Assembly (NCBI GenBank): GCA_027858735.1 | Contig: JAQICC010000361.1 | Location: 1-45,955, forward strand | Direction: 5' to 3' | DNA length: 45,955 nucleotides | DNA from: Salinivirgaceae bacterium | GTDB taxonomy: Bacteria; Bacteroidota; Bacteroidia; Bacteroidales; SZUA-534 | In this document: one piece after another, positions 108 to 44,987 of the stretch | Position numbering within the stretch: position 1 is the first letter of the stretch | Layout of the letters: each line of letters opens with the position of its first letter | Program-made: the position numbers and the translations under genes | The notes under the pieces: generated by a model | Seen by the model: the letters and a program-made list of their open reading frames with translations, nothing else | Databases searched by the model: none | Told to the model about the DNA's origin: nothing

Positions 108-1664
108 CTACTTAAATGATATTGCTCCCGTTGGACAACTTTCTGCACATTTTTGAGCTGTTTTGGTTAAACTGTTCTGTAGGGTTTCATTATAAGGGAT
201 TCCAATCCTAACATCAAATCCTCTACCAACATAAGTTAAACCAGTTAATTCTTTCTCTTTTTGAGTGATATCTACACACAACCCACAGCGAATGCATTTT
301 TCTTCTTCGTAAATAATGGTATCATGTGTAAATTGCTTGGTAACCAAATTTCGTTCACCAAAGCTATAAGTTTTTTGAATTGCCCCATACTCATCTGCCA
401 ACATTCTTAATTTACACGCTTTTGGCTTTCGGCAATCGCAGCGCAGACATCTTTTTGCTTCATCAATAGAAGCTTGTGAAATAAATCCATCAAGTTCATT
501 CTCAGGTTCAAATCGGGCATTTGAATTTGATTCTTTCAAATACTCAGCATGTTCTTCTTTAGCTAATTTACCAAATTTTGAATTGAAAAGTCTAGTATTT
601 GTGATCTCTGAATTAGAAAGCACTCCATGAACATAATAGGCTGCAGCTTTGCCTTGTGCTAAGGCACGAACTGCCATTTTTTGAACCTTCACTGTACTTC
701 CGCAGGCATAAACATTGGGTAGGTTCGTTGAAAACAATCCATCGGCAATATCAATGCCCGAATGTTTCTCGTTTAACTTTAAACCCAAAGGGGCTTCACC
801 ATTTTTAATTTCGCCGGTAGCCACTACTATAGCATTATATGCTGTCGAAAATGATTTTAATTTTTCACTGTCAATTTCCTCTTTCAATGAAAATTGAACC
901 CCAAATGCTTCGAGAATTGCAATCTCATTTTCTAAAACTTCACTAGGTAATTCTTTGGGCTGATTATTATGCAACAATGCGCCACCCGCTTTTTCATTTT
1001 TATCGAAAACAGTTACCTGATGCCCCAACTTTACTAGATGAAATGCACATGCCAAACCTGAAGGACCCGCACCTATAATTGCTACCGTTTTACCTGTACT
1101 GGCAGCTTTGTTAGGTAAATAAGGGTTTTTAGAATTTGCATCTTCAAGTGCCACAAACTTTTTAAGCTGACATATTGAAACCGCTTCATCAATTGACCGC
1201 CTGCGACAAGCTCCTTCACAAGGTGCAGAACAAACATAGCCCAAAACCAATGGAAGGGCAATCTCTTCTTTAACTAATTTTAAAGCTTCAATAGGATTAC
1301 CTTTTGCAATTAACCGATTCATTTCAGGAATATCCATAAAGGCCGGACAAGCAATTCTGCAAGGTGCTTCGCAATCACCAACATGGTCGCTTAATAATAA
1401 TTCCAATGCATCTTTTCGAGCTTCAATAACCTCTATATCATTGGTTATTACCTCCATATTATCTTGAGCAGGATAAGCACATGATGGATGTAGTTGTCCT
1501 GTTTTTTTATCCTTTACCATACACACCATGCACGAAGGATGATTGCTATATCCTTTTAAATAGCACATGGATGGAATATGGATACCTATTTCCTTTGCTG
1601 CTTCAAGAATTGAAGTGCCCTTTGGTACAGTTACTTGTTTGTTATCTATTGTTAGTTTTATCAT
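108..1664 (-). CDS. NuoG/GltD-hybrid iron-sulfur flavoprotein without an NAD(P) domain
   Basis: This 518-residue cytoplasmic protein is the last gene of the leftward redox operon. Residues 1-75 form a [2Fe-2S] ferredoxin domain as at the NuoG/HydA N-terminus (C34, C45, C48, C62). Residues 80-170 match the GltD-type iron-sulfur domain (C98, C102, C106, C145, C149, C153). A FAD Rossmann motif GAGPSG lies at 198-203, with ATG at 282-284 and NVYACG at 317-322. Only about 35 residues separate the last two motifs, where GltD-family proteins normally carry the second NAD(P)H-binding Rossmann domain of about 120 residues, so that domain is absent. The C-terminus has further Cys clusters (406-417 and C457/C460/C463/C506/C510) resembling NuoG ferredoxin centres. 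I infer that it takes electrons from the NuoEF-like neighbour rather than binding NAD(P)H itself. The physiological acceptor is unknown. Confidence 0.85.
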
Positions 1665-5195: not shown

Positions 5196-7055
5196 TTATT
5201 TACCTATGCAATATAGGTTTTTATCTGTTCTAATATAAATTCTGCCATCGGCAAAAGCCGGAGTGGTTACCACATCTTCTCCCAAACTTGATTGTGCCAC
5301 TTCCGAATATTCCTTGCTTGCTTTAAAAATATGCATCACTCCTTTAATATCCATTAAATATACGTTATCACCCACCGCCATAGGCGACGCGTATATATTA
5401 TTCCCAAATTCATGTTCCCAATACATTTTACCCGTAACTGCATCATAGCAGGCAACCAAACCATAGCTTGTTGATACTATTAACAAACCGTTCGTGGCAA
5501 CAGGACTAGGAATATCAGACAATATCATATCATCTTCCCATAACACTTCCGATGGTTTATCCATGTCAATTGCTGCTAATGTTGCATACTCATTTAAGGC
5601 AAATATTTTTCCATCGACATATGCCGCTGAAGGACCTACTTCGCCGAAAATGCAATCAAGTTTCCAATTTTCTTGTCCCGTTTGCGGATTATAAGATGCC
5701 ACAAAGGGATCGGCAACTGTTATTATATGTGTTTCGCCATTATACTCTACTAAAATTGGTGATGCCCAAGAGATTTTCACTTCGCGTGGCGTACTCCAAA
5801 CTTTTTTTCCAGAGGAAGCTTCAAGAGCCATTATTTGGGAGTTTTTCTTCTGATCGTATTGAACAATCAATTTATCCTTATACATGATTAATGAAGATGA
5901 GTGTCCGTAATGGTTTTGTGGAACTCCTAAATTTATACCCCAAACCATTTTTCCATTCATATCAAAAGCAGCAATATCACCTGTTCCGAATATTACATAA
6001 ACACGTTTCCCGTCCGTTGTCATTGTTGCAGCTGCTAACCCCGTATCGGCGGTTGTTTTGGGTGCTACTGATGGGGAACCAGGAATATTTTCAATTTTAG
6101 TTCGCCACAACATTTCACCTGTTGTTCCATCAAAACAAAAAACTTCGCGAACCGCTTCAGTTGCACCACTTACAAATACTTTATTTTCCCAAATAATCGG
6201 AGAATTAAAACCATGCAAAGGAACTTCAGCTTTCCATAGAATATTTTTGTTTGAAGCCGCATCCCAATCTGTTGGTATATTCTTTTGATAAACAATTCCG
6301 TTGCTATAATACCCCCTAAATGAGGTAAAATTATTTTTCAATTCTTCTTCTGAAGGAATGCCTATATTACTTTTCTTTGGAGTATTACTAGTCTTTATTA
6401 CTTTTTCTTCATCTTTTATAGGCTCTTCAACAAGCTCGCTTAGCTCTTCACCTACCAATTCCTGAACTTCTGGCGTTTCTACATTTGCAATTGGTATTGG
6501 TGTTACTTCTTCCTCTTTATCATCTATCGGCGATTCTGCGATTTGCTCTGATTTATTTCCTGAATTACGTAATTTATCGCCCAATTGCGTATGCATGAAA
6601 AATGCCAAGAGTAACGCTAATATTACTAAACTACCACCCACCAGAGCAATTCCAATTCTGGCATTTTTTTGTATTCCAAGAATGTCTTTTGGTTGATCAG
6701 GATTTGCCAGCACTTGTTTGCGGTTATTGGCATCCATCAATTGATAGGCAATAACAAACACGGCTAGTGCAAGTAAAATTAAATAACCTCCCATTTTTAC
6801 TTGCCATTGATTTATAAAATATGCTTTCCGAGCCAATAAATCGAGCTCCTGAATTTGATGTTTCAATAGCTCATCCTTAGGATTTTCGTTCAAGCGCTCA
6901 ACTAAGGAATTAATTACCTCGGTATTGACAGGATCCATCCGGTTAATTTGAAAGTAACTGGCAATAACCAAAACACAAACTACCATAGCAAAAATCAGTG
7001 CTACCAAAGCAATACCTTTTAAAACCTGATCTTTATTTTTTTCTTTATTATTCAT
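5196..7055 (-). CDS. Three-helix membrane protein with periplasmic PQQ-like beta-propeller
   Basis: This 619-residue protein starts with three predicted membrane helices at about residues 14-34, 88-106 and 132-152. A charged, Glu-rich linker (about 160-235) leads to a PQQ-like (BamB/quinoprotein-type) beta-propeller over about 240-619. The propeller shows recurring blades with motifs such as W-x-TKI and Dx(T/S)G(K/E)-x-x-W. The domain probably lies in the periplasm, tethered to the inner membrane. It is 23 bp from the upstream polyferredoxin gene and is followed by the NuoEF-like gene, so it is part of the same operon. True PQQ enzymes need specific cofactor residues and PQQ synthesis genes. 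Neither is recognisable here, so a structural or binding role is as likely as catalysis. Confidence 0.85.
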   Translation of the reverse strand: MNNKEKNKDQVLKGIALVALIFAMVVCVLVIASYFQINRMDPVNTEVINSLVERLNENPKDELLKHQIQELDLLARKAYFINQWQVKMGGYLILLALAVFVIAYQLMDANNRKQVLANPDQPKDILGIQKNARIGIALVGGSLVILALLLAFFMHTQLGDKLRNSGNKSEQIAESPIDDKEEEVTPIPIANVETPEVQELVGEELSELVEEPIKDEEKVIKTSNTPKKSNIGIPSEEELKNNFTSFRGYYSNGIVYQKNIPTDWDAASNKNILWKAEVPLHGFNSPIIWENKVFVSGATEAVREVFCFDGTTGEMLWRTKIENIPGSPSVAPKTTADTGLAAATMTTDGKRVYVIFGTGDIAAFDMNGKMVWGINLGVPQNHYGHSSSLIMYKDKLIVQYDQKKNSQIMALEASSGKKVWSTPREVKISWASPILVEYNGETHIITVADPFVASYNPQTGQENWKLDCIFGEVGPSAAYVDGKIFALNEYATLAAIDMDKPSEVLWEDDMILSDIPSPVATNGLLIVSTSYGLVACYDAVTGKMYWEHEFGNNIYASPMAVGDNVYLMDIKGVMHIFKASKEYSEVAQSSLGEDVVTTPAFADGRIYIRTDKNLYCIGK

Positions 7056-7078: not shown

Positions 7079-8356
7079 TTAAATCAATTCATCACCTTCA
7101 GATTTCACCGGACAAAAATCGACACATCGAGCACAACTTAAACAATCGCCTCTATTGGGTTCATAATCTTCGCGATATCGTAGTATTGATAATGATGCTA
7201 AACTGATACCAATAACCAAACCTATAAATGCCCCTAAAATCCAACTACCCCGTTCAAATTGTTTTAGTATGGCAGCTGATTCTTCATAAAGTTCTGATGC
7301 AGACTTTCCGCTGCTTTTAAACGATTCAATATTTAATGATTCCACCCCTTTTGGATTCTCCATGGCTTCTATCATTTCATTTGCCATGCGAACTTTTGGA
7401 TTCACCTTAGCTAAAACCTCATGCATTTGAGAACCTGCCCATCCTCCAATTATAATCAATAGCGGAATTATTATTGATAGACCAATAAATCTAAAAATCA
7501 TGGTTTTTCTATCCAGCTTAATATCTTCAGGAACCGGTTTTTCAATGGCTCCGAAAGGACACGAATTTTCACATAGTTTACATTGAATGCAGCTTGCCGG
7601 AGTAATGGTTAAATGCTTTTTAGAAAACCTACTAACCCAATTAAGCAGCACTCCATACGGACATAAGAACCGACAGTATGGACGCGCTATAAAAACTCCA
7701 ATTAACAAAAGAATACCACCAATAATAAACATGGTGAACGTGCCATCGAGTCGGTAAATTCCAATAAATGGATCGTAACGGCAAATAACAAAATCGGAAG
7801 CTGTAGCGGCATACAGAACAGCCAATCCCAAATAAACAAATGGTAGGATACCTAGGGTTTTTTGCAGCCATGGCTTTATTTCAATAGGCTTAATTGCTAC
7901 AATATCTTGAATGGCACCCAATGGACATACTCCTGCACAAAAAGTTCGACCAAAAAAGAGTGTGAAAATCAAAGGCAAAGCAAAAAACAGAATAGCAGAA
8001 ATAGGAATCACATAATTTGGATTAAATAAAGCCAAAGAAATATTTTGCAATGACCCTACGCTGCAAATACAGCCTTCGCGAAAAAATCCGAAGTAAGCAA
8101 TGGAAAAAAGACTCATATAAAGCACCCCACGTCGCGATCGTTTTTTTAATACCAACCATGACACTACTGAAAGGCTTGCTAATAATACAAAAATGTCAAA
8201 ATACTCAAGAGCAGTTGATCGGGCTTCAGGCTTTTGCACTTCTGGTTGGGTGTGTCCATTTTCAAATTCAGGTTTTGGAAAGCGTTGAGCTTGTACAGAA
8301 ACACCCTGAATAATAAGAATAAAAAAAAGAAATATGTATATGAATTTTTTGGTCAT
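7079..8356 (-). CDS. NosR/NapH-type membrane polyferredoxin
   Basis: This 425-residue inner-membrane protein begins with a signal-like segment (1-24 ending VQAQ), followed by about five or six hydrophobic helices. Membrane Cys motifs typical of the NapH/NosR/CcoG family are CICS (96-99), CAGVCPLGA (140-148) and CRFLCPYG (228-235). Two [4Fe-4S] motifs follow: C256/C259/C262/C266 in the middle, and C405/C408/C411/C415 near the C-terminus after a last helix (about 371-392). The N-terminal FMN domain of NosR is missing. The family passes electrons across or along the membrane to periplasmic reductases. Here it would link the cytoplasmic NuoEF/NuoG-like pair to the Tat-exported polyferredoxin encoded next to it. 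It is a strong candidate for the membrane step of the system. Confidence 0.88.
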   Translation of the reverse strand: MTKKFIYIFLFFILIIQGVSVQAQRFPKPEFENGHTQPEVQKPEARSTALEYFDIFVLLASLSVVSWLVLKKRSRRGVLYMSLFSIAYFGFFREGCICSVGSLQNISLALFNPNYVIPISAILFFALPLIFTLFFGRTFCAGVCPLGAIQDIVAIKPIEIKPWLQKTLGILPFVYLGLAVLYAATASDFVICRYDPFIGIYRLDGTFTMFIIGGILLLIGVFIARPYCRFLCPYGVLLNWVSRFSKKHLTITPASCIQCKLCENSCPFGAIEKPVPEDIKLDRKTMIFRFIGLSIIIPLLIIIGGWAGSQMHEVLAKVNPKVRMANEMIEAMENPKGVESLNIESFKSSGKSASELYEESAAILKQFERGSWILGAFIGLVIGISLASLSILRYREDYEPNRGDCLSCARCVDFCPVKSEGDELI

Positions 8357-8430: not shown

Positions 8431-9021
8431 TTATGTTTCATTGTCATCTTTATTTTTCATTATTCCGTTGAATAAGTAAGGATCTTTTGCAGGTACTCTT
8501 TTAAAGGCATCAACTGGGCAATCGCGAGCTATACCACACTCATTACAGTTTACACAAATGCTTTGATTTACTTGCAGTTGCATTGAGCCATTACCAAATG
8601 AACCACACCCCTTTACACATTTACCACAGCCAATGCATAATTCTTCAATTATATGATATTCGAAATAGGGCTTCTCAACATAAACCCTTTCAATGGCAGC
8701 AGTAGGACATAATTGCTTTTCGGCCGCTGTTGAAAGATTTTTAACACCTGGACGAAAATATCCACCACACAAATTGCAATAGCCACACATATTGAAAACG
8801 TGCATGCATTTAACTGCCGATGGTGTTAGCACACAGCTTGTAGCACACCGACCACATTGTACACATTTAGTTGCATCGAGCTGCCAAACCATTTCTTGCT
8901 TTGACGAGTTACTCAGCAATAAACCGCTTAAGCCACCAATACCAAGCGCTACAGAAAAGCGTACTCCACTATTTATAAATTCTCTTCGGTTTATTTTATT
9001 CCTTTTCTCACTATCTCCCAT
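8431..9021 (-). CDS. Tat-exported polyferredoxin (NapG/NrfC-like)
   Basis: This 196-residue protein has a twin-arginine signal (NRREFI at 11-16, then a hydrophobic stretch 21-36), so it is probably exported folded with its clusters. Sixteen or more cysteines are arranged for about four [4Fe-4S] clusters: C53/C56/C59/C63, C79/C82/C85 with C72 and C105, C129/C132/C135/C139, and C156/C159/C162/C168. NapG-type ferredoxins of this layout work with NapH-type membrane proteins, and the next gene encodes one. It probably carries electrons on the periplasmic face towards the beta-propeller proteins. The gap to the next gene is 74 bp. Confidence 0.88.
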   Translation of the reverse strand: MGDSEKRNKINRREFINSGVRFSVALGIGGLSGLLLSNSSKQEMVWQLDATKCVQCGRCATSCVLTPSAVKCMHVFNMCGYCNLCGGYFRPGVKNLSTAAEKQLCPTAAIERVYVEKPYFEYHIIEELCIGCGKCVKGCGSFGNGSMQLQVNQSICVNCNECGIARDCPVDAFKRVPAKDPYLFNGIMKNKDDNET

Positions 9022-11802: not shown

Positions 11803-13068
11803 TTATTTATTAGCAATATCATAAGCCATTAGGGCGTTTCCATGGCGAACATAAAGTTTACCATTGTTAATAACCATATGCGACCAATGTGGCCCTTTAC
11901 CTTTCGCTATTTTAAATTGGCTTACTATATTAAAACCATCGGGCGTTGCTGGCACTAATGCTATATTACCGCGCTTTTCATCGTAACAATATAACATGCC
12001 ATCGTTGCTAATTATTGATCCTTTATTTTGCCATTCAATTTCGTATTCAGCTTTACCCGTTTCCCAATTTATACAGCACCAGTTTCCATTACTGTTATTT
12101 AACCAGTTCGACCCATAAATGTATCCGTCAATCAAAACAACATTACCATGATGCACATCAAGGACAGAATCTGTCCAAACCACTTCAATATCAGTTAATT
12201 CATCATTAAGTTTATACTTTACACCTGAATGGTTATAACCACTTGTAATATAAATCTCATTATTATAATACACTGGTGTATTGGTATTTATTTTTGGAGC
12301 GCTGGACCACATAGCAATGGCTCGTGTATTATCAACATTTGCGTATTTATTGGTAAAAACAATACTTCCAGTTTCAGCATCTACACCAAAAACATTAGTT
12401 GCCAATACATTTACAATTACTTTTTTGCCATTTTTTTCAATTAAAATAGGCGATGCATATCCACAGGTATCATTTAGTGTTTCCGTTTTCCATATTTCAT
12501 CACCTGTTAACTTATTCAAAGCAACCATGGTGGTTTTGTGTCCGGCCGGAGTAAAAACCACTTTATCATCAATTATTAGCAGTGATTCCGCATATCCCCA
12601 TGTGCCTACTTTTCCTTCATATTTATCAAAAGCTTCAACCTTCCAAATAATTTCTCCGTTGGTTTTGTTTATACATGCAATATCACACATGCTGCTTTGC
12701 ACATATATATTGTTACCTTCAATGGTCGGAGTGCTACGACTGTCTTGAAAAGATTCCATAAAAGCTCTGCCGTAAGCAATTTTCCACTTCATAATGCCTT
12801 TATTGTCAAGAGCAATCAAATAATCTAACGTATCAATTAAACCAGTTAAATAAATTGTTTCACCATCAATTGCAGCCGATGAATGGCCCTTTGGAAGTGA
12901 ATCATTGAACCAAAGTAATTCAGGCCCGTCGACTGGCCATTCTTTTAACAAGTTGGTTTCATTATAAATACCATTGCGATTTTCACCTCGCCATTGACTT
13001 ATAATTTGCGCATTGGTGAATTGCGTAAAAATTGCAATTAATACGAGAGTAATAGTTACTGTTTTCAT
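11803..13068 (-). CDS. Secreted PQQ-like beta-propeller protein, paralog 3
   Basis: This 421-residue protein has a signal peptide (1-20, ending TNAQ) and then QWRGENRNGIYNETNLL, the entry motif shared with the next two paralogs. The body is a PQQ-like propeller with blades such as KTNGEIIWKVE, KLTGDEIWKTE and ETGSIVF. Shared elements also include GYAESLL and the final blade ending GKLYVRHGNALMAYD. It is probably periplasmic. A 355-bp gap containing a dispersed repeat separates it from paralog 2. No cofactor can be assigned from the sequence alone. Confidence 0.87.
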   Translation of the reverse strand: MKTVTITLVLIAIFTQFTNAQIISQWRGENRNGIYNETNLLKEWPVDGPELLWFNDSLPKGHSSAAIDGETIYLTGLIDTLDYLIALDNKGIMKWKIAYGRAFMESFQDSRSTPTIEGNNIYVQSSMCDIACINKTNGEIIWKVEAFDKYEGKVGTWGYAESLLIIDDKVVFTPAGHKTTMVALNKLTGDEIWKTETLNDTCGYASPILIEKNGKKVIVNVLATNVFGVDAETGSIVFTNKYANVDNTRAIAMWSSAPKINTNTPVYYNNEIYITSGYNHSGVKYKLNDELTDIEVVWTDSVLDVHHGNVVLIDGYIYGSNWLNNSNGNWCCINWETGKAEYEIEWQNKGSIISNDGMLYCYDEKRGNIALVPATPDGFNIVSQFKIAKGKGPHWSHMVINNGKLYVRHGNALMAYDIANK

Positions 13069-13238: not shown

Positions 13239-13428
13239 CGTTGTTATTTGTATATTTTCCAAAATTCCGTCGCAAATAAACCCTTCTCTTTTAAATACGA
13301 AGTACGTGCGACGGTTTTCTAATCACCTCATTATTATCGGAGCCCCGAGCTACCCTGCCTACCGGCAGACAGTTTGATATTCAAACTCAACAAGCCTTTT
13401 AATTTTATCATCGCTATTTTAAACTACA
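13239..13428. repeat. Dispersed intergenic repeat, copy 1
   Basis: This segment of about 190 bp is homologous to 38075-38244. Both copies contain GTTATTTG, then an 8-bp perfect stem CCGTCGCA (13267-13274) and TGCGACGG (13307-13314) around a loop of about 32 nt, then TTTT. Both share a right end with TTGATATTCA and AAACTACA. Copy 1 runs into the stop codon of the PQQ paralog at 13424. It fills most of the 355-bp gap at 13069-13423. The remainder, 13069-13238, is AT-rich with nothing I can assign. Confidence 0.8.
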
Positions 13429-14674
13429 GCCTTTTAATATTATAAACCATTAATGCTGTGCTGCTTCTTAAAAATAGTTTCCCGTTTTTAATAACCGGAT
13501 GTGCCCAAAATGGACTATCGCCATAAGGCAATTTAAATGAGCTCACAATTTCAAACTTTTCAGGATTTATAGGGGCAATACCCATTGTTCCCAATTTTTC
13601 TTCATAACAATACAGCATACTATCAGCAGCTATTATTGAACCCTTATTATGCCATTCTTCGGAGTACATAACTTTCCCTGTATCCCATTTTATGCAAGCC
13701 CAATTTCCCATTCGGTTATGCAACCAATTAGTACCATAAATATATCCGTCAATTTGCACTACTCCACCATAATGCACATCTAAAATCGTATCTACCCATT
13801 TAACTTTTACGTCATTACCATCTTCGGCCAAACTTAGCATAACACTTTTATGATCGTAACCACTTGTTAAAAATATTTCGTTATTAAAAAATAAAGGCGT
13901 GTTGGTTTGGTTATTTCTTTTGCTTTTTCCACCAGCATATTCCCCAAAATCGAATTGCCACATAAGCTCTCCATTTTCAGGATTTAAGGAAAAAAGAAAA
14001 TGCTCTGTTAAATTCAGTATCATTTTTTTGCCTTTTGCCTCAATAATAAGAGGCGAAGCATAGGATGCATTATCATTTAATGATTTTGATTCCCATAAAG
14101 TTTCACCTGTATTTTTATTTAGTGCCACCATTGTTGTTTTTTCACCAGCCGGTGTAAAAAATACTTTATCATCAACAAGTAATAAAGACTCGGCGTAACC
14201 ATACTTTCCAGCAGCTCCTTCATAAATATCAACAGCCTTAACCTCCCATATAATTGAACCGTTTTCAGCATTTAAACAAGCTACATCGCCCAGTCCACTT
14301 GATAAAAAGATTCTATTATTTTCAACAGTGGGGGTGCAACGACTGTGCTCATAAGAGCCATTCCAAGCTCGCCCATAGGGTGTTTCCCATAGTTTTTGGC
14401 CTTCCATATCATAAGCCATTAGTACATCCTTGTCATTGACTATGCCCGTTACAAATACCTTACTATAAGCAACTGCCACCGATGCATAACCTTTGGGAAT
14501 ACTATCGACATACCAAAGCAATTCAGGACCATTTTGGGGCCATACTTTTAACAGATTTGTTTCATTTGTATAAACTCCAGTGCGGCCTAAACCTCGCCAT
14601 TCTGAAACTACTTGTGCATTCATTGAAACAGCTATCAGTAAAATAGCTGCAGAAACAACTCCTTTTTTTATCAT
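13424..14674 (-). CDS. Secreted PQQ-like beta-propeller protein, paralog 2
   Basis: This 416-residue protein has a signal peptide (1-20, ending SMNAQ) and a PQQ-like propeller of the same layout as the two flanking genes. It starts with EWRGLGRTGVYTNETNLLK and has GYAESLLLVDDKVFFTPAG in common with paralog 3. Blade motifs include AENGSIIWEVK, KNTGETLWESK and PENGELMW. It starts 2 bp after the stop of paralog 1, so the two are probably co-translated. Similarity among the three points to local tandem duplication. Confidence 0.87.
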   Translation of the reverse strand: MIKKGVVSAAILLIAVSMNAQVVSEWRGLGRTGVYTNETNLLKVWPQNGPELLWYVDSIPKGYASVAVAYSKVFVTGIVNDKDVLMAYDMEGQKLWETPYGRAWNGSYEHSRCTPTVENNRIFLSSGLGDVACLNAENGSIIWEVKAVDIYEGAAGKYGYAESLLLVDDKVFFTPAGEKTTMVALNKNTGETLWESKSLNDNASYASPLIIEAKGKKMILNLTEHFLFSLNPENGELMWQFDFGEYAGGKSKRNNQTNTPLFFNNEIFLTSGYDHKSVMLSLAEDGNDVKVKWVDTILDVHYGGVVQIDGYIYGTNWLHNRMGNWACIKWDTGKVMYSEEWHNKGSIIAADSMLYCYEEKLGTMGIAPINPEKFEIVSSFKLPYGDSPFWAHPVIKNGKLFLRSSTALMVYNIKRL

Positions 14675-14676
14675 AT

Positions 14677-15888
14677 TTATTGACTTATATCAAACACCAT
14701 TAATGAGGTTCCATGACGAACATATAGTTTTTTATTAGCAATAACTAAATGAGCCCAATGTTGTTTTTCACCAAAAGGAACATCAAACTGGCTAACTACT
14801 TTAAATTGTCCTGAATTGGGTTGAACTAAAGCCACCTGACCACCGCTACTGTACCAATAAAGCATACCATCAGCTGCAATTACACTCCCTACTTTAAGTT
14901 CTGATGCATTATTAATTTCCTTACCTGTTTCCCAGTCTAAGGAAAGCCATTTGCGTGACTTCTGACCTGCACCATAAATCTTACCATCTATTAATACAAA
15001 CCCACCAATTTGGTTATCTAACTCTTCGTTTCGCCATAGTTCTGATACAGAATTTCCATCATCAGCGAGTTTTAGCATAATACTTCCTTGTCCATATCCA
15101 CTGGCACAAAATAATTTTCCATCAGCGTATAAAGGTGTATTTGGGTGCACCGAATATTTATTTGTCCACGGAAAGCTCCATAAAAACATCCCATTATTTG
15201 CATCCAGAGCAACAATATTATTGGCTCCATGAGTAACAATCATCCGTTTTCCTTTATGGTTTATAAGCTGAGGAGAGCAATATGCACTTTTATCGCCTTT
15301 AGCTTTATTTGACCAAATAAGTTCACCCGTATTTTTATCAAGTGAAATTATATTTGAATCAGTTCCACCAGGCATACAAATCAATTGATTGTCATATATA
15401 AGTAAGTTTTCAGTTACTCCCCATTGAATATTGCGTCCACCATATTTGCTAAACAAATCTACTTTCCATAATAATGTTCCATTATTGGCATCCAAACAAG
15501 TAAGCACGCCAAAGCCACTCATCATGTAAACTCTGCCATCATTAAAAGTTGGAGTAGAACGAATACCATCCCAATTTTCCATCCATTCTTTACCGTACGA
15601 TGTTTTCCATACTTGTTTACCTTCTGAGCTTAAAGCAATAATAAACCCATTTTCGTCTTCTGTACCCCCTGTGTAAATCATTTCATTGGCAATAGTAGCC
15701 GATGCATGCCCTGGACCTAAACTATCGAAATGCCATAATAATTTTGGACCATCTGCCGGCCATTGCTTTAATAAACCAGTTTCATTATAAATACCATCGC
15801 GGTTTTTTCCACGCCATTGGTTTGCATTTTGTGCTTGTATTAAGCTAGCACTACACATGAGAATTAATAATAGAGTTTTTTGAATCAT
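14677..15888 (-). CDS. Secreted PQQ-like beta-propeller protein, paralog 1 (first gene of the leftward operon)
   Basis: The start at 15888 is chosen because it gives a clean signal peptide (MIQKTLLLILMCSASLIQAQ). A longer reading from 15951 adds 21 basic/aromatic residues ahead of it. The mature protein, about 383 residues, opens with NQWRGKNRDGIYNETGLLK and forms a PQQ-like propeller with blades such as ANNGTLLWKVD, KNTGELIWSNK and ANNGMFLWSF. The final blade, KKLYVRHGTSLMVFD, matches paralog 3. It heads the operon facing the terpenoid genes. No standard promoter was found between 15889 and 16060 on this strand. Confidence 0.86.
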   Translation of the reverse strand: MIQKTLLLILMCSASLIQAQNANQWRGKNRDGIYNETGLLKQWPADGPKLLWHFDSLGPGHASATIANEMIYTGGTEDENGFIIALSSEGKQVWKTSYGKEWMENWDGIRSTPTFNDGRVYMMSGFGVLTCLDANNGTLLWKVDLFSKYGGRNIQWGVTENLLIYDNQLICMPGGTDSNIISLDKNTGELIWSNKAKGDKSAYCSPQLINHKGKRMIVTHGANNIVALDANNGMFLWSFPWTNKYSVHPNTPLYADGKLFCASGYGQGSIMLKLADDGNSVSELWRNEELDNQIGGFVLIDGKIYGAGQKSRKWLSLDWETGKEINNASELKVGSVIAADGMLYWYSSGGQVALVQPNSGQFKVVSQFDVPFGEKQHWAHLVIANKKLYVRHGTSLMVFDISQ

Positions 15889-16064
15889 AACAATAGGTTT
15901 TAAGAGTAAATTTTTGAATTCATTTTTAAAAGTATGAATAAAAAACCTCATACAAAAATCACTATCTTTATCTAGACTAAATCTAAATAGTAATTCAATT
16001 ATTTAATTGATTTAGTGCAAGTTAACTACCTTGTTAAATAGTTGTTAAATACATAATATTTTTA

Positions 16065-16092
16065 TTTGCCTTAAAAAAACGAATTAGTTTTG
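16065..16092 (+). promoter_or_regulatory. Promoter for the isoprenoid gene set
   Basis: TTTG at 16065-16068 is followed after 16 nt by TAGTTTTG at 16085-16092. This matches the Bacteroidota -33/-7 pattern TTTG and TAnnTTTG, although the spacing is on the short side. Transcription would start near 16097, leaving an untranslated leader of about 160 nt before the first gene. This lies in the 370-bp divergent intergenic region, whose left half (15889-16060) shows nothing else assignable. Confidence 0.6.
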
Positions 16093-16130
16093 TACTTAAG
16101 TAATGCAAAAACCTTTTAAACCTTATTATC

Positions 16131-16205
16131 ATGTTTTCTAAATTCTCGTTTTACCGATTCAAACATCTTTTTTACCGTTTCTTTCATATAATCTATCGCA
16201 AATAA
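16131..16205 (+). CDS. Possible 24-residue leader peptide
   Basis: A short ORF lies in the leader of the isoprenoid operon, 53 bp before the first gene. It encodes a basic, aromatic peptide with a repeated FYRF motif (SFYRFKHLFYRFF). The repeat is visible as two TTTTACCG-TTC copies in the DNA. Phe, Tyr, His and Arg/Lys make up most of it. It could be a regulatory leader peptide or chance. No attenuator hairpin was identified after it. Confidence 0.25.
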   Translation: MFSKFSFYRFKHLFYRFFHIIYRK

Positions 16206-16258
16206 TAAGAATTACAGTTTAAATTTAATTAATTAGCGTCCATTAAATTCTTTAGATA

Positions 16259-17005
16259 ATGACACAACTTACAATTTGTGCCTGTAAAAGGGGTTCAAAA
16301 GTAGAAGAAGTTTCCCTTCAGAAATGGAAAGAAGAGTTAAGCAAAGCAAATATTGCCTATACCTTAATAGATGATATGTGCGGATTGGCAACTCAGGATT
16401 CAATTAACCACAGCTTAATCAAAAATGAGGAAAAACACTTACTGCTAGGCTGCCAACCTAAGGCCATGAATAATTTAGTTAAACACTTGGGAATAGACTC
16501 CGCTGAACATAATATTGATTTACGCAATTTAAATGAAAGCTCTACCGATTTAATAAGCAAGATGGAATTTACGGCTGGTGAGCCAAGAATTATTGCATAT
16601 AATGACAACTGGAAACCTTGGTATCCGGTACTTGATTATGATGTATGTAACAGCTGCCAAAAATGCCTGAACTTTTGCCTTTTCGGAGTATACAAACTCA
16701 ATAATGAGGGAAAAGTTATTGTTGAGAATCCTGAAAATTGCAAGGATTTATGTCCGGCTTGTGCCCGCACCTGCCCCACTAATGCAATCATTTTTCCAAA
16801 GCATCACGAAAGTCCTATTGATGGTGGTGAAGCCGAAAAGAGCATCGCTGTTGGAAATATATTAGATGGAATTCAACAAAGTCAGGATGTTTACAAGCTT
16901 CTTGCCAATAGAAGAAAAGCATCTGGCATACCATTATTTAAAGCCGACCAATTGCAAATTGCCAAACAAGAACGGGATCAATGTAAATGTAACGACAAAA
17001 AATAA
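16259..17005 (+). CDS. Ferredoxin-domain protein (two [4Fe-4S]) heading the isoprenoid set
   Basis: This 248-residue soluble protein has an N-terminal domain of about 110 residues with scattered cysteines (C7, C9, C41, C65), including LLLGCQPKAM, a pattern like the small Fe-S domains of heterodisulfide-reductase-type proteins. A 2x[4Fe-4S] ferredoxin domain follows: C130/C133/C136/C140 and C161/C165/C168/C172. A tail ends in CKC. It is probably the electron donor for the radical SAM enzyme encoded 56 bp downstream, although the N-terminal domain suggests an additional role. It is the first gene of the rightward operon. Confidence 0.8.
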   Translation: MTQLTICACKRGSKVEEVSLQKWKEELSKANIAYTLIDDMCGLATQDSINHSLIKNEEKHLLLGCQPKAMNNLVKHLGIDSAEHNIDLRNLNESSTDLISKMEFTAGEPRIIAYNDNWKPWYPVLDYDVCNSCQKCLNFCLFGVYKLNNEGKVIVENPENCKDLCPACARTCPTNAIIFPKHHESPIDGGEAEKSIAVGNILDGIQQSQDVYKLLANRRKASGIPLFKADQLQIAKQERDQCKCNDKK

Positions 17006-17061
17006 ATGGTAGCTTGCGTAACTAATTCATAAATATAACTTCAAATACATAAAAAACTTCA

Positions 17062-18255
17062 ATGATAATTCCTTTTACCAAAAGACTACTAACTGAAATT
17101 GATATGCGCTTGTTATTGAAACTCTCCTATAATATGGGTTGGAAAGCAATGCGAGCCATAGCAAAATATAAAAAACGACTTAAAAAAGGGGAACTATTTC
17201 CTGCTTTTTTAATGATTTCAGTAACCGACCAATGCAACTTAAACTGTCAGGGATGCTGGGTAAAAATAGACAATAAAAGCAAAGGGATGAATCCTGAAAC
17301 CTTGAATAATATCATAAATTCGAGCAAAGCCAAGGGATCCTATTTCTTTGGTATTTTAGGTGGTGAACCTGTAATGTATCCGCACTTAATTGAAATACTT
17401 GAACAACACTCCGATTGTTACTTTCAGCTTTTTACAAATGGCACGCTATTAACAGACGAAGTTGCCAAAAAACTCAGAAAACTTGCTAATGTTACTCCGC
17501 TGGTTAGTATTGAAGGATTGGAAGATGTGAGCGATATTCGCCGTGGAGCTGATAAGGTTTACAAGCGCAGCATGACGGGTATTGATGCATGCACATCGAA
17601 CAAACTAATGACGGGGGTAGCCACCAGTGTTTGTAAATCAAATTTCAAGGACTTGGTAAGTGAGGAATTTGTTCAGAAATGCATCGATAAAGGAATCCAT
17701 TATTTATGGTATTATATTTACCGGCCTGTTGGTGCTAATCCTAGCAAAGAATTGGCATTATCGGAAAACGAAATTCTGCAACTTAGAGAATTTATGGTAA
17801 ATGCCAGACTAAAATTCCCCATTATGATTGTTGATACTTATTGGGATGATAAGGGTAAAGCCCTTTGTCCGGGGGCTGTTGGAATAAGTCACCATATTAA
17901 CCCTCATGGTGGTATAGAACTTTGTCCGCCCATACAATTTGCATTGGATAATGTAAAAGATGGTAACAATTTGGGTGACATAATTGAAAATTCTGTCTTA
18001 CTAAGACACCTGCGTACCGAGATTCCAAAAACTACACAAGGATGTATATTACTGGATAGTCCTGAGGCTTTACAAAAAATGGTTGCTGATTTGGATGCTT
18101 ATGATTCATCGAAGCGAGGATCGGCCCTTACCGAGTTAAATAATATGGGAAAACTACCCGGACACCATATTCAAGACAAAGAAATACCAGAAAAAAGCTG
18201 GATGTACCGATTTGCAAAAAAGAATTGGTTTTTCGGGTTTGGAGTTTATGGATAG
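17062..18255 (+). CDS. Radical SAM enzyme
   Basis: This 397-residue protein contains the cluster motif C58-x3-C62-x2-C65 followed by W, and GGEP at 100-103 for SAM binding. It has a (beta/alpha)6-like core. A C-terminal extension contains C269 (ALCPG) and C288 (ELCPP), which may bind an auxiliary cluster in the manner of SPASM-type enzymes, and ends in an aromatic/basic segment. Radical SAM enzymes of this kind carry out methylations, C-C bond formation or lipid modification, such as HpnH-type adenosylation in hopanoid biosynthesis. Next to a polyprenyl synthase and a cyclase-like protein, an isoprenoid substrate is likely but unproved. Confidence 0.87.
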   Translation: MIIPFTKRLLTEIDMRLLLKLSYNMGWKAMRAIAKYKKRLKKGELFPAFLMISVTDQCNLNCQGCWVKIDNKSKGMNPETLNNIINSSKAKGSYFFGILGGEPVMYPHLIEILEQHSDCYFQLFTNGTLLTDEVAKKLRKLANVTPLVSIEGLEDVSDIRRGADKVYKRSMTGIDACTSNKLMTGVATSVCKSNFKDLVSEEFVQKCIDKGIHYLWYYIYRPVGANPSKELALSENEILQLREFMVNARLKFPIMIVDTYWDDKGKALCPGAVGISHHINPHGGIELCPPIQFALDNVKDGNNLGDIIENSVLLRHLRTEIPKTTQGCILLDSPEALQKMVADLDAYDSSKRGSALTELNNMGKLPGHHIQDKEIPEKSWMYRFAKKNWFFGFGVYG

Positions 18256-18305
18256 CACTTCGACTTCGCTATGTTTACCGTGTTAGACTTCTCTCTGTGT
18301 TCAGT

Positions 18306-18341
18306 ATTCAGTAATCGGTATTCAGTAATCGGTATTCGGTT
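18306..18341. repeat. 14-nt tandem repeat
   Basis: ATTCAGTAATCGGT occurs twice in tandem (18306-18319 and 18320-18333), with a third partial unit to 18341. A related TTCAGTATTCAG precedes it. It sits in the 146-bp gap between the radical SAM and polyprenyl synthase genes. It resembles other simple intergenic repeats in this window (1-82 and 9041-9081). Confidence 0.85.
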
Positions 18342-18401
18342 AATAAATAGATTAGAAAAAACAACCCTTATAAGCAAACAAAAAGCAAGTGAATAAATGT
18401 T

Positions 18402-20006
18402 ATGAGCTTTAAAGAAAACATAGAAATTACAGAAGCAAAAAACATAATGCCCAATGAGGATGAGTTGAATATACTCAGAGACTTGGTTGCTGTGTTTTTA
18501 GCTAACAAAAAATTAATTCCTCCGCTTTATAAAGACCAACTTTTTAGTTTAGCCACTACATTTATAAAATATCATTCTCAATATTCAGCTTTTTATAAAC
18601 TCATTGCAATTTTAATAAACAACTATACTTGGGAAAATGTGGTTGCCTCTGTGCCATTTAACAGAAGGGTTTTACTTTTGCCAAAATGCATTCAAAACTC
18701 GAAAAGTTGTAAGGCAAAAACCGATGAATTAGGATTGCTTTGTGAATTATGCGGTGGCTGCAATTTAGCAAATTATATTACTACAGCAGAAGAATTAGGG
18801 TATAATGTTATTGTAAGCGAAGGCTCAGGAGCTGTAAGTGTGCTTTTAAACTCCGGTCAAATTGAATGTGTGGTTGGTGTTGCTTGTCTTGATTCATTTG
18901 AACGTACTTTTCCAATTTCACTTAAGCAAGCCATACCCTCAATTGCAATTCCATTGTACAATTCAAACTGCAAAGATTCTAGAACTAACGAACCATGGTT
19001 GAAACAAGTTATAGAGTTAAGCCACTCAACAAATTCCGTGGCTAGGGTCGATTTAAAGCAATTAACCGCAAGCACAAATGCCTGGTTTACTTCAACCTAT
19101 TTAAATAATCTATTTCCATTAAACGATCAATCAACCCGTATTGCAAACAAATGGCTACAAGCTGGAGGAAAACGCTGGCGCCCCTTAATTATGATGGCAG
19201 TTTATACGGCACTAGCAGCTGAAAATGAGCAGAATACTCCTAAACTCGCCAAATTGGCCATTGCCATTGAAAGCTTTCATAAAGCATCTTTAGCACATGA
19301 TGATATTGTTGATAATGATACTTCAAGATATGGAGAAGCTTCTTTATTGAAAGAACACTCCATGAAAATTACTTTAAACACCGGAGACTTACTTTTAAGT
19401 TATGGCTATCAGCTAATTGCCGATTCAGGGTTAAATACCAAACAAATTCAGAAACTTATAACTGCTGCATCAAAAGCACATAGAGACTTATGTTTAGGGC
19501 AAGGAGAAGAACTCCTTTGGCAGCAAAAAATGCAGATGCCTTCTGTTGAAAAAACAATTGAAATTTTTGCATTAAAAACAGCACCCGCATTTGAAGTTTC
19601 TCTTGTATTTGGAGCTATTGCTGCAGAAAAAGAAGCGCTTTTATCTTCCGTATTAAAAAATTACAGTCATGCCATTGGAATTGCCTACCAAATAAGGGAT
19701 GATATTGATGATTTTAATCCTGAACAAATTAACAATGACATTTCAGATTTTCGTCCGTCCTTAATTTTGGCCATTTTAAATGAAAACAATCCTGAATTAA
19801 TGCAAAATAAATTACATCAGCATATAAACAAAGGAAATGCATTTGCCAATGATATATTTACTTGGGCAGAAAAATCAGGTGCAATTGAAATTGCGAAACA
19901 AATGCTTGATGTCTACAAAAGTAAGGCTTTGGAATCGTTAGAAGCCTTAGAAAATACCTCTGTTAAAATTCTGCTCTACCAATTGCTAAATAAAATTATT
20001 GGATGA
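18402..20006 (+). CDS. DUF116-polyprenyl diphosphate synthase fusion
   Basis: This 534-residue two-domain protein has a Cys-rich DUF116-type domain at residues 85-200 (C96, C103, C114, C117, C120, C156, C162, C190), probably metal- or Fe-S-binding. Residues 225-534 are a trans-isoprenyl diphosphate synthase with GGKRWRP (255-261), the first aspartate motif DDIVD (300-304) and the second DDIDD (433-437), both complete. Small residues Ala and Ser lie five and four positions ahead of the first motif, as in enzymes making long chains, where short-chain synthases carry bulky residues. It would elongate isopentenyl diphosphate to a polyprenyl chain. The stop overlaps the next start by 4 bp, so translation is probably coupled. 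DUF116 has no established reaction. Confidence 0.88.
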   Translation: MSFKENIEITEAKNIMPNEDELNILRDLVAVFLANKKLIPPLYKDQLFSLATTFIKYHSQYSAFYKLIAILINNYTWENVVASVPFNRRVLLLPKCIQNSKSCKAKTDELGLLCELCGGCNLANYITTAEELGYNVIVSEGSGAVSVLLNSGQIECVVGVACLDSFERTFPISLKQAIPSIAIPLYNSNCKDSRTNEPWLKQVIELSHSTNSVARVDLKQLTASTNAWFTSTYLNNLFPLNDQSTRIANKWLQAGGKRWRPLIMMAVYTALAAENEQNTPKLAKLAIAIESFHKASLAHDDIVDNDTSRYGEASLLKEHSMKITLNTGDLLLSYGYQLIADSGLNTKQIQKLITAASKAHRDLCLGQGEELLWQQKMQMPSVEKTIEIFALKTAPAFEVSLVFGAIAAEKEALLSSVLKNYSHAIGIAYQIRDDIDDFNPEQINNDISDFRPSLILAILNENNPELMQNKLHQHINKGNAFANDIFTWAEKSGAIEIAKQMLDVYKSKALESLEALENTSVKILLYQLLNKIIG

Positions 20007-20974
20007 AAACCATCAACCAACACATACTAAAAAGTCTTTTAAACGCAAGGAAGCAGTTAAGCCCCGAAGCAAATGATCTTATAACATCATTCACCCTTTC
20101 AAAACTACATGCTGACGGCGGGTTCATGGACAGATCGGGAAATGCTGATCCCTATTATTCGGTTTTTGGTTACACGCTATGCTATGTTTTTGGTATTGAT
20201 ATTTCTTATAAAAAGAACCTTTCATTTTTAAAAAATTGGCAAACCCAAAACAACGTTGATTTTGTGCACGCCATTAGCATGCTGCGATGCTATTATTTGC
20301 TTGAGATTATTTTTTATTCGCAAAAATTTAAAAAGGCTGCTGATTTGTTAAATAAATCTGCATTCATTCAAAATTTCGCAGGTTATCAATTTGCTCGAAA
20401 AATAAGAAAGCAGCATAAAGAATTACTTTTGCTGCTTACAAAATATGAAGCGAAAGATGGTGGTTTTAACCATTTAGAGCAAGGAGCGGAATACTGCTCT
20501 ATTTATGCTAATTTTCTTGCATATAGTCTTTTTGAAGATTTTCAATTCGGAAAATTATGGAGGAGACAAATTGCTAACAGCTGCCAAAATCTTCAACTGG
20601 AAAACGGTTCATTTGTGAATCATCCAAAATCGAAACAAGGAATTGGATCAACGAGCGCTGCTGGTTTAATTCTGCAAAATAAATATCTGATATCGGTAAA
20701 AAAATCAGCAGACTGGTTGAAAACTTTAATTTCACAAAATGGAGGTTTTTTGGCCGGTGAAGAGGTTCCTGTATCAGATGTTTTATCGACAGCAACTTCG
20801 CTTTTGGCTTTAAATATAGTAAACGAATCGAGCACTATTATAAATGCCAATGCCATAGAATTTGCAAACTTGCATTGGGATAGCTCCGGTGGATTTTTTG
20901 GCAGTATTGCCGATCAAATTCCGGATGTTGAATACACTTTTTATGGATTGTTAACCATTGGACAATATAGGTAA
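20003..20974 (+). CDS. Prenyltransferase/squalene-cyclase-type alpha/alpha-toroid protein
   Basis: This 323-residue protein is built of helical repeats with the DGGF/NGGF turns of the prenyltransferase beta-subunit and terpene cyclase superfamily (ADGGFMD, KDGGFNHL, ENGSF, QNGGFLAG, SSGGFFG). It also has DVEYTFYGLLTIG at the end, resembling protein prenyltransferase beta subunits. No DxDD motif is seen, so it is unlikely to start cyclisation by protonation. It may transfer or bind a prenyl chain or form a partner of the next protein. It overlaps the polyprenyl synthase gene by 4 bp and lies 3 bp before the cyclase-like gene. Confidence 0.78.
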   Translation: MKTINQHILKSLLNARKQLSPEANDLITSFTLSKLHADGGFMDRSGNADPYYSVFGYTLCYVFGIDISYKKNLSFLKNWQTQNNVDFVHAISMLRCYYLLEIIFYSQKFKKAADLLNKSAFIQNFAGYQFARKIRKQHKELLLLLTKYEAKDGGFNHLEQGAEYCSIYANFLAYSLFEDFQFGKLWRRQIANSCQNLQLENGSFVNHPKSKQGIGSTSAAGLILQNKYLISVKKSADWLKTLISQNGGFLAGEEVPVSDVLSTATSLLALNIVNESSTIINANAIEFANLHWDSSGGFFGSIADQIPDVEYTFYGLLTIGQYR

Positions 20975-20977
20975 ATA

Positions 20978-22762
20978 ATGACCGAAAATGAGAATGCTAA
21001 TATAAAAAGAACCATTAGAAACCTTCACAAAAATCTCTTGTCACAACGAAATGACAAAGGCGTTTGGGATGGTCAACTTTCAAGCAGTGCCTTAGCAGTA
21101 GCTGTAGCTATTTTTAGCTTATGGAAATATTCCCCCAAAAGTAATAGTGAGCTAATTAGTGGAGGGTTACAGTGGCTTAAAAATAATATAAATAGCAATG
21201 GTGGCTATGGTGATACCATTAAAAGCAAAAGTAACTTAAGTACCAGTTTATTGTGCTGGAGTGCTTTTTCCATAGTAAAAGATAATAGGGAATATCAAAC
21301 TTGTATTGAACAGCTTGAAAACTATATTATTAAATCGGCAGGCAGCCTTGAACCAAATGCCATTAGTCAGGCAATTCTAAAACATTACGCCAGCGATAAA
21401 ACATTTTCGGTACCCATTTTGGCCATGTGTGCTTTAGCCGGACGTTTAGGAGAAACGGGTTGGAAATTTGTACCCCAACTCCCCTATCAATTTGCAGCAT
21501 TGCCCCATATACTTTTTCGTTGGTTAAATTTAAATGTAGTAAGCTATGCTATTCCTGCCTTAATTTCTATGGGAATAATTAAGCAGAAAATGAATCCATC
21601 AAGAAATCCATTAGCACGTTTGATCAACCATATTCTTGAACCCAAACTCTTGCGAGTTTTAGCGGAGAAGCAGCCCGATAATGGAGGTTTTTTGGAAGCC
21701 ATACCATTAACAGCTTTCGTTTTAATGACTTTGGTTGGCGCTGGTTTAAAAAACAGCGCTGTTTGTGCTAAAGCTGAGGCTTTTCTACAATATTCCGTTC
21801 GTAACGATGGAAGTTTCCCTATTGATACAAGTTTAACCACTTGGGTTACAACTCTGGCCGTAAATGCATTAAGTAAAGAACAGTTTAATGCATTGGATGA
21901 AAAAGATAAAACCCAAATTAAAGATTGGCTTTTAAACCAGCAGCATAAAACGGTTCACTCATTTACCAAAACAGCTCCAGGTGGTTGGGCATGGATTGAC
22001 ACTCCAGGTGGAGTTGCAGATGGCGACGATACATCAGGCGCATTAATTGCTCTAAAAAAATTAATGGGTAATACAGAAGAAGGTATCGCATCAGCAAGAA
22101 TGGGATTAACCTGGCTACTCGGCATTCAAAACAAAGATGGTGGATTTCCAACTTTTTGTAAAGGATGGGGCAAATTGCCATTTGATGCCAGTTGTCCTGA
22201 TATTACAGCTCATGTCATTCGTGCTATTCTAGAATGGAAAGATGATATGGATAATGCCATTTCCAAAAAATTGGAAAAATCATTAAATAAAGCCATTCTC
22301 TATTTAAAAAACACTCAAAAGCGTGATGGCACATGGGTGCCTCTTTGGTTTGGAAATGAGCACGATAAAAATCACAAAAATCGGGTTTACGGAACATCAT
22401 TGGTTTTAATTGGGCTATGCATCGCAAAACAAAAAGGGTTTTCTGAATTAGATCGTATGATTGATTTGGGCAGTTTATACTTGCACTCGAATCGCAACAA
22501 CGATGGTGGTTGGGGAGGACATAAAGATTTACCCTCAACTTTAGAGGAAACAGCATTGGCAACTAAAGCTCTTTGCCTAAGTAAACGCAAAGTTGATCTA
22601 AGTTTTAGTACAAATTGGCTATGTGAAGAATGCTATTTTTCAGATCCAAAACCCTCTCCCATTGGTTTATATTTTGCTTCCCTTTGGTACCATGAGAAAT
22701 TATACCCTTTAACTTATACCTTAGGAGCTTTGAATACTGTTTCTGATATTTTAATTACCTGA
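20978..22762 (+). CDS. Class II terpene cyclase-like protein (squalene-hopene cyclase superfamily)
   Basis: This 594-residue protein has the layout of squalene-hopene/class II diterpene cyclases and is slightly shorter than typical hopene cyclases (about 630). The protonation motif appears as DGDDT (348-352, DxDDT). Cyclase-type features include GGWAW (335-339), the turns KDGGF and RDGTW, a VYGTSLVLIGL segment near 470-480 and NNDGGWGG near 508. Such enzymes cyclise squalene or polyprenyl chains by protonating a double bond. The probable substrate is the product of the upstream synthase or a derivative. No squalene synthase gene is visible in the window, so squalene is less obvious as substrate. 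It is the last gene of the set. Confidence 0.82.
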   Translation: MTENENANIKRTIRNLHKNLLSQRNDKGVWDGQLSSSALAVAVAIFSLWKYSPKSNSELISGGLQWLKNNINSNGGYGDTIKSKSNLSTSLLCWSAFSIVKDNREYQTCIEQLENYIIKSAGSLEPNAISQAILKHYASDKTFSVPILAMCALAGRLGETGWKFVPQLPYQFAALPHILFRWLNLNVVSYAIPALISMGIIKQKMNPSRNPLARLINHILEPKLLRVLAEKQPDNGGFLEAIPLTAFVLMTLVGAGLKNSAVCAKAEAFLQYSVRNDGSFPIDTSLTTWVTTLAVNALSKEQFNALDEKDKTQIKDWLLNQQHKTVHSFTKTAPGGWAWIDTPGGVADGDDTSGALIALKKLMGNTEEGIASARMGLTWLLGIQNKDGGFPTFCKGWGKLPFDASCPDITAHVIRAILEWKDDMDNAISKKLEKSLNKAILYLKNTQKRDGTWVPLWFGNEHDKNHKNRVYGTSLVLIGLCIAKQKGFSELDRMIDLGSLYLHSNRNNDGGWGGHKDLPSTLEETALATKALCLSKRKVDLSFSTNWLCEECYFSDPKPSPIGLYFASLWYHEKLYPLTYTLGALNTVSDILIT

Positions 22763-41547: not shown

Positions 41548-41564
41548 AAAAATTTACCATTTGA

Positions 41565-41591
41565 GTAACACGATATAATTTAAAGTAACAC
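41565..41591. promoter_or_regulatory. Predicted NikR operator at the TonB receptor gene
   Basis: GTAACAC at 41565-41571 and 41585-41591 has the same direct orientation and 20-bp spacing as the nikR site, and the intervening AT-rich bases are also similar. It lies 17 bp before the receptor start. Confidence 0.77.
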
Positions 41592-41607
41592 GTATTAATT
41601 TTAATAA

Positions 41608-43434: not shown

Positions 43435-43435
43435 T

Positions 43436-44887: not shown

Positions 44888-44987
44888 TATAAAAATATGA
44901 AACAACCATGATAATCATGTTTAACACATACAAGCGAGACAATTCACATGGATGTTTCATCTAACCATTAAAATAAAATTTAGACAG

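Follow-up and report, generated by a model that had tools for sequence, protein, structure and literature searches.

Do a redox operon and a set of terpenoid genes that stand head to head in one bacterial contig belong to a single system? The window, that is, the whole stretch of DNA analysed here (contig C71, positions 1-45955, of a Salinivirgaceae draft genome of 6.0 Mb that is 98.9% complete), holds five terpenoid genes on the forward strand (set A, 16259-22762) and, on the reverse strand, a series of redox genes that runs from 15951 or 15888 down to 108 (set B). As read from its sequence, set B comprises a Bfu-type NAD(H)/ferredoxin module, a NapH-like protein, a ferredoxin with a twin-arginine translocation (TAT)-like leader, and propeller proteins with export or anchor segments. 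A first-pass annotation had proposed that a redox operon and a five-gene isoprenoid set at 14677-22762 form one system. Every gene that it named is present as an open frame with its family matched by Pfam; its interval takes in the whole of set A and only one gene of set B, which continues to the contig end. In two phyla the sets are found in the same genomes and as neighbours, and the genomic pattern indicates that they very probably constitute one functional system.

Co-occurrence was examined in 295 genomes of the window's order and in 145 genomes of the phylum containing Lentisphaeria bacterium UBA2565 (the second phylum), which we take to be Verrucomicrobiota in GTDB. Gene families were assigned with Pfam and NCBIfam profiles. 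Set A was scored by its cyclase (E 1e-3) in the order and by its DUF116-synthase fusion protein (E 1e-60) in the second phylum, and set B was scored by its ferredoxin at 8431-9021 (E 1e-20). In the order, 13 genomes, the window's own included, have the cyclase and 48 have the ferredoxin; the latter is found in 11 of the 13 set A genomes versus 37 of the 282 others (p 4.5e-8 by a Fisher test, which, here and below, treats genomes as independent). Two of the 48 ferredoxin matches are weak (G216 and G136, 94-104 bits), and p is 2.7e-8 without both. The second-phylum genomes were counted without completeness values, and fragmented assemblies can conceal genes and linkage; the fusion was found in 20 of them, the set B marker in 21 and both in 19 (p 1.5e-20), with set B alone in G747 and G827 and set A alone in G754. 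Neither sample shows the chance-level or independent distribution that the first-pass annotation had named as evidence against its proposal. Among 395 genomes of the window's own phylum, the cyclase profile matched the window's genome only. A contig scan with a single-sequence query found the nearest named relative of set A in 'Bacteroidales bacterium isolate C14-25' (L021, 53-74% identity), whose genome (G688) has the set A radical S-adenosylmethionine (SAM) gene and a PF00494 match.

Adjacency of the two sets was seen in 15 genomes and takes divergent, co-directional and convergent forms, so that the neighbourhood is conserved while the layout changes. Within the order, set A is followed co-directionally by set B in G257, G023, G205, G137 and G164, the last two ending at contig ends; a CobW-like GTPase gene separates the sets in G257, and the set B propellers of G058 lie 9.4 kb from the cyclase. 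Five second-phylum genomes (G764, G771, G788, G797 and G811) have the cyclase followed by propeller, NHL-like, ferredoxin, NapH-like, propeller and fused NuoE+NuoF (NuoEF) genes. The order in G717 and G738 (contig cut) is similar to that of these loci, and the sets are convergent neighbours in the second-phylum genomes G753 and G700. The remaining ten second-phylum genomes with both sets have the two markers on separate contigs.

Trees were built for 23 of the 30 genomes with both sets, with 22 rows for the fusion, 23 for the NapH-like protein and 18 for NuoEF. The fusion tree needs three changes of phylum, at least two of them forced by well supported branches; the order genomes G023 and G205 group with G771, G764, G788, G797 and G811 (98/96). 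The NapH-like and NuoEF trees need one change each, which implies that set A joined set B on more than one occasion. Set A would accordingly have crossed phyla more than once, or have a deeper mixed history, and is still found in genomes with set B. The window's own row sits on a long branch, and its place is unsure. Taken with the co-occurrence in two phyla and the adjacency in 15 genomes, this repeated pairing strongly supports the earlier proposal of one system.

The same proposal had also read joint control into the divergent arrangement around a 370-bp region, and this part is not supported as a general rule. The length itself is correct if the first propeller begins at the ATG at 15888, a start that gives it a signal-peptide-like N-terminus; with the start at 15951 the spacer measures 307 bp. 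One match to a Bacteroidota-type promoter consensus lies in the spacer at 16065-16092 (+). Across the window six such matches were found against 6.2 expected, which is chance level, and joint control of both sets is therefore not demonstrated. Among the stretches read, only the window has the divergent layout. Because the layouts elsewhere are co-directional or convergent and the promoter-like motifs are at chance level, a head-to-head promoter was rejected as the general link between the sets.

Table 1. Features of sets A and B and of the spacer between them, in order of position.
Feature	Position	Strand	Evidence and remarks
2Fe-2S/GltD-like subunit, BfuA type, short (518 amino acids)	108..1664	-	Fer2_4, Fer4_15 over cut-off
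Fused NuoE+NuoF protein, BfuC-BfuB type	2685..5033	-	NfnB 9n5u E 4e-209, cluster Cys aligned
Membrane-anchored propeller	5196..7055	-	PF13360 E 1e-27
NapH-like membrane 4Fe-4S protein	7079..8356	-	Fer4_5 E 2e-15
Ferredoxin with TAT-like leader	8431..9021	-	Fer4 families; leader read from sequence without a predictor
NHL-like propeller, N-terminal anchor-like segment	9334..10299	-	Weak ScyF/NHL match, 24 of 350 bits; place conserved
Propeller with N-terminal anchor-like segment	10350..11768	-	PF13360 E 1e-16
Exported pyrroloquinoline quinone (PQQ)/BamB-like propeller	11803..13068	-	PF13360 E 7e-16
Exported PQQ/BamB-like propeller	13424..14674	-	PF13360 E 9e-22
Exported PQQ/BamB-like propeller; start maybe 15888	14677..15951	-	PF13360 E 2e-25
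Divergent spacer	15889..16258		370 bp with ATG start 15888; 307 bp with start 15951
2[4Fe-4S] protein with N-terminal Cys domain	16259..17005	+	Fer4_10
Radical SAM enzyme, own subfamily	17062..18255	+	Radical_SAM E 9e-16
DUF116-polyprenyl diphosphate synthase fusion	18402..20006	+	PF01976 DUF116 E 2e-25; PF00348 polyprenyl_synt E 2e-40
Single alpha-alpha toroid protein, prenyltransferase-like	20003..20974	+	PF00432 Prenyltrans E 7e-10
Class II terpene cyclase	20978..22762	+	SQHop_cyclase N and C domains, both over cut-off

The five genes of set A are separated by gaps of 56, 146, -4 and 3 bp, in order (Table 1). In the 2[4Fe-4S] protein, C7, C9, C41, C65 and the eight cluster Cys are invariant in 11/11 aligned homologues, and in the radical SAM enzyme the CxxxCxxC motif and C269, C288 and C328 are invariant in 10/10. 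The fusion has the fold and both Asp-rich motifs of trans-polyprenyl diphosphate synthases: D300-D301-D304 and D433-D434 are invariant in 25/25 homologues, the third Asp of the second motif varies, and in the AlphaFold model (predicted local distance difference test score, pLDDT, 85.5) the synthase part reaches Z 33 to 3llw/3q1o, geranyl and geranylgeranyl synthases. Its DUF116 part has seven Cys invariant in the same 25/25 and, modelled alone, forms an alpha/beta domain (pLDDT 81). Searches for relatives of this domain gave no usable structural match, the best being E 0.022 with Foldseek and, with VIA-align, a designed Rossmann fold (Z 8.2, root-mean-square deviation 3.2, 99 residues); the best match among PDB sequences had E 0.7. 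The sole PDB match of the toroid protein is part of Rab geranylgeranyltransferase beta (E 2e-6). Among the set A genes, neither a UbiA-type nor a head-group gene was recognised with Pfam and NCBIfam. A stretch at about 18294-18340, in the gap between the radical SAM and fusion genes, has similar copies at five other places in the same genome (contigs C275, C1 and C227). Beside set A, a CobW-like GTPase with a GCFCC motif is encoded in four genomes of two phyla (G257, G753, G700 and G806; L036:16898-18121, L175:13013-14116, L176 and L178), and in G753 a GcvH-like gene (L175:14119-14613) adjoins it.

The cyclase joins the SQHop_cyclase N and C domains to a D-x-D-D acid motif at residues 348-351, in which D348, D350 and D351 are invariant in 11/11 homologues, and is on these features a class II terpene cyclase. 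By family, set A resembles the hopanoid pathway (squalene synthase or HpnCDE, squalene-hopene cyclase, HpnH), which likewise uses a class II cyclase and a radical SAM enzyme on an isoprenoid, and the nearest solved structure to the cyclase is squalene-hopene cyclase 1gsz (E 5e-27). Unlike that pathway, however, set A adds the DUF116-polyprenyl synthase fusion and the toroid protein, and its enzymes fall far from the hopanoid families: the cyclase scores 84.9 of the 431.1 bits needed for squalene-hopene cyclase (TIGR01507), and the radical SAM enzyme 55.4 of 225.05 for the adenosyl-hopene transferase HpnH (TIGR03470). The latter enzyme reaches 55-70 bits with its best-scoring NCBIfam models, which include HpnH, NirJ and AhbC and have cut-offs of 225-650. 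A further difference is that squalene/phytoene synthase (PF00494, which we take to cover HpnC/HpnD as well) was found in 11 and undetected in 22 of the 33 set A genomes, in a search whose controls were positive in 7/14 named genomes. The genomes without a match are 6/13 in the order (the window's own, G016, G100, G112, G137 and G205) and 16/20 in the second phylum, where three of the four matches (G695, G708 and G741) are in genomes without a cyclase at the set A locus. The substrate of the cyclase is therefore probably not squalene, and the enzyme probably takes the product of the fused polyprenyl synthase. A hopanoid pathway was rejected on the two cut-offs and the PF00494 search, and it is likely that set A makes a squalene-independent cyclic terpenoid.

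By sequence, the core of set B corresponds to the Bfu family of electron-bifurcating enzymes (StnABC/Nfn-Bfu; PMC9304861). The NuoEF protein has the domains given there for BfuB and BfuC, with Nuo51 FMN-binding, NADH_4Fe-4S, 4Fe-4S dicluster and NuoE-type 2Fe-2S domains over their Pfam cut-offs and SLBB (23.2 bits) under its 27-bit cut-off; residues 177-782 align with NfnB/StnB-type chains, and the cluster Cys are kept. Its partner has the 2Fe-2S and 4Fe-4S ferredoxin-type domains given for BfuA, and its first 288 residues match the StnA/NfnA-type chains 9bov, 9n5u and 8oh5 at E 2e-78 or better. In contrast to that family, BfuC is here fused to BfuB, BfuA is short, and the module shares its operon with the NapH-like protein, the TAT-like-leader ferredoxin, the propellers and, in the window, the terpene genes. 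An IS200-type (Y1_Tnp) transposase gene (1952-2407, -) stands between the two Bfu-type genes.

A NapH-like membrane 4Fe-4S protein beside a TAT-like-leader ferredoxin recalls the NapGH quinol dehydrogenase module of periplasmic nitrate reduction. Set B differs from it in having the Bfu core and propellers where the Nap catalytic genes would be, and its membrane protein is only 'NapH-like', at 45.4 of the 213.05 bits of the NapH/MauN family cut-off (TIGR02163). The composition recurs: of 20 order stretches around the set B marker, some of them short, the NapH-like gene is in 20/20, the anchored propeller in 18/20 and NuoEF in 16/20, and the propeller at 10350 has 40-62% identity to its counterparts at other set B loci. 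Set B in the window stops at the contig end; loci that reach further go on to encode a propeller, an FtsX-type permease with an ATP-binding cassette (ABC) ATPase and, frequently, a GT4 glycosyltransferase. The propellers score at most 51 of 480 bits against the PQQ dehydrogenase profile (TIGR03075), and three exceed the 26.7-bit PF01011 cut-off (29.8, 35.7 and 31.1), each scoring lower than with PF13360. A search for pqqC gave matches in 0/34 genomes, its positive control being likewise silent everywhere, and the available part of the Bfu family text does not name PQQ (PMC9304861).

Elsewhere in the window, an Eco57I/N6-type DNA methylase gene and a BsuBI/PstI-type restriction endonuclease gene overlap at the end of the former (31139-33620, -), and a nickel-looking block (41146-45716, +) encodes a NikR-like regulator, a TonB receptor, a nucleoside-hydrolase/FmdE-domain protein and a DsbD_2-type membrane protein.

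How might the two sets work together? Set B would move electrons between cytosolic NAD(P)H or ferredoxin and propeller-bound partners in the periplasm. In set A, the fusion would make a long polyprenyl diphosphate, and its Cys-rich DUF116 domain, together with the 2[4Fe-4S] protein, may process this compound reductively, for example by removing the diphosphate. The class II cyclase would fold the chain into rings by means of its D-x-D-D acid, and the radical SAM enzyme would modify the terpenoid, squalene probably not being the precursor. In the least certain step, the polycyclic terpenoid would work in the membrane part of set B, where it would serve as a bound lipid cofactor or as a carrier linking the NapH-like protein with its partners, and could act beside or in place of menaquinone. 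That the lipid is a carrier or bound lipid cofactor of set B appears to us evenly balanced. Menaquinone and methanophenazine are polyprenyl redox carriers, and the set A product, on this reading, would resemble them as a polyprenyl-based membrane lipid tied to electron transport; in contrast to theirs, its chain would be closed into rings by a class II cyclase, and set A has no recognised gene of UbiA or head-group type.

The distribution of quinone genes bears on this role. UbiA (PF01040) was found in 51/51 genomes searched, and its matches were typed by NCBIfam and then by BLAST against typed genes (best match, 78-192 bits); the typing is partial, covering only some UbiA matches in G145, G247, G747, G058 and G268 and leaving the order set A genomes G164, G167, G197 and G257 outside. 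No MenA- or MqnP-type gene was detected among all UbiA matches of 7 of the 19 second-phylum genomes with both sets (G764, G771, G788, G797, G811, G812 and G820), of which G771 is assembled essentially in one contig of 5.73 Mb. In G023 and G137, MenA-like genes reach 94 and 95 bits, just short of the 102 bits that TIGR00751 requires. The search also covered 15 of the order genomes with set B and without set A; 12 of these have a MenA/MqnP-type gene, one (G010) shows none and two are without a call. This pattern fits a carrier role of the lipid where the quinone is missing. We tentatively extend it to a specific proposal, which we regard as doubtful as it stands: the product of set A may be a new class of respiratory lipid, squalene-independent, cyclised by a class II enzyme and modified by a radical SAM enzyme, that carries electrons or protons for a Bfu/NapH-type transmembrane complex and allows organisms in which MenA/MqnP-type genes are undetected, such as G771, to run the complex without menaquinone.

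Several observations weigh against a single system with a lipid carrier. Of the 48 order genomes with set B, 37 have no set A, so set B does not always depend on the lipid. Conversely, set A occurs without the set B marker in G167, G164 and G754; in G167 all of set B that lies near set A is a NuoEF homologue of 45% identity, while G164 is 82% complete, yet set B propellers come after its cyclase. Both sets are present but apart in the order genomes G016, G100, G112, G197 and G268. Nor is the whole of set A found at every locus: all five genes are present at the fetched loci of 10/13 order genomes (G164 across two contigs) and 8/20 second-phylum genomes. The radical SAM gene is absent from the stretches of G700 and G806 and the cyclase from those of G692, G695, G708 and G741; the fusion is the only set A gene in those of G754, G789 and G820, and G802 has the fusion and cyclase only. 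Set A loci end at contig ends in G137, G058, G786 and G812, and in G016 the radical SAM and 2[4Fe-4S] genes are on a different contig from the cyclase. Finally, the window's own genome has MenA (268 bits, cut-off 102), and a MenA- or MqnP-type gene is present in at least 12 of the 19 second-phylum genomes with both sets, so replacing a quinone cannot be the whole of the lipid's role; set A as a plain replacement for menaquinone is weakened to that extent. The earlier suggestion that the lipid is carrier or substrate is compatible with these data, provided that the 37 order genomes with the set B marker and no cyclase, and the menaquinone-type prenyltransferases, can be accommodated.

Four other explanations were weighed. 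The terpenoid could be the substrate, reduced or oxidised on the periplasmic side by set B, which would export electrons to it or draw them from it; the propellers would bind it, and the GT4 and ABC/FtsX proteins would decorate and move it. The exported propellers and the GT4, ABC and FtsX genes within set B operons speak for this, as does the rarity of set A without the set B marker (2/13 in the order, 1/20 in the second phylum), but the 37 of 48 order set B genomes without set A would have no such substrate, and we think the explanation unlikely. Alternatively, set B may be a power supply whose Bfu-type core keeps the Fe-S enzymes of set A provided with low-potential electrons, the task of the lipid being unrelated. 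Bfu enzymes have ferredoxin and NAD(H) as electron partners (PMC9304861), and set A, seldom found without set B, is rich in Fe-S proteins (the 2[4Fe-4S] protein, DUF116 and the radical SAM enzyme). This account leaves the NapH-like protein, the TAT-like-leader ferredoxin and the propellers unexplained. Moreover, radical SAM enzymes are commonly served by general cell reductants, and a dedicated supply seems distinctly unlikely.

It is more improbable still that the lipid has a structural purpose, stiffening the membrane like a hopanoid or sterol, and that the same anaerobic habitats keep both sets, which would have moved jointly with no shared function. Among enzymes of solved structure, squalene-hopene cyclase comes closest to the cyclase, and set A has moved between lineages, both as this explanation would have it; adjacency to set B in 15 genomes and three layouts, and the presence of both sets even where they are unlinked (five order and ten second-phylum genomes), are not. 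Chance neighbourhood scarcely survives, since the IS200-type transposase within set B, which suggests that the region may be mobile, and the separate location of set B in five order set A genomes are set against co-occurrence in two samples and adjacency in two phyla, which already contradict it.

The preferred reading is thus that sets A and B work as one system. All its parts come from known superfamilies, and the combination as a conserved unit would be the new element. Among the open-licence PubMed Central papers that our searches listed, none describes, by title or abstract, a conserved unit of a Bfu-type module, a NapH-like membrane protein, exported propellers and a dedicated class II terpene pathway, in agreement with the first-pass view that the pairing would be previously undescribed. 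If the link is functional, it would provide a first testable function for DUF116 fusions and a squalene-independent source of polycyclic bacterial lipids, which would be relevant to the reading of such lipids as biomarkers; it might also supply a non-quinone electron carrier of the membrane.

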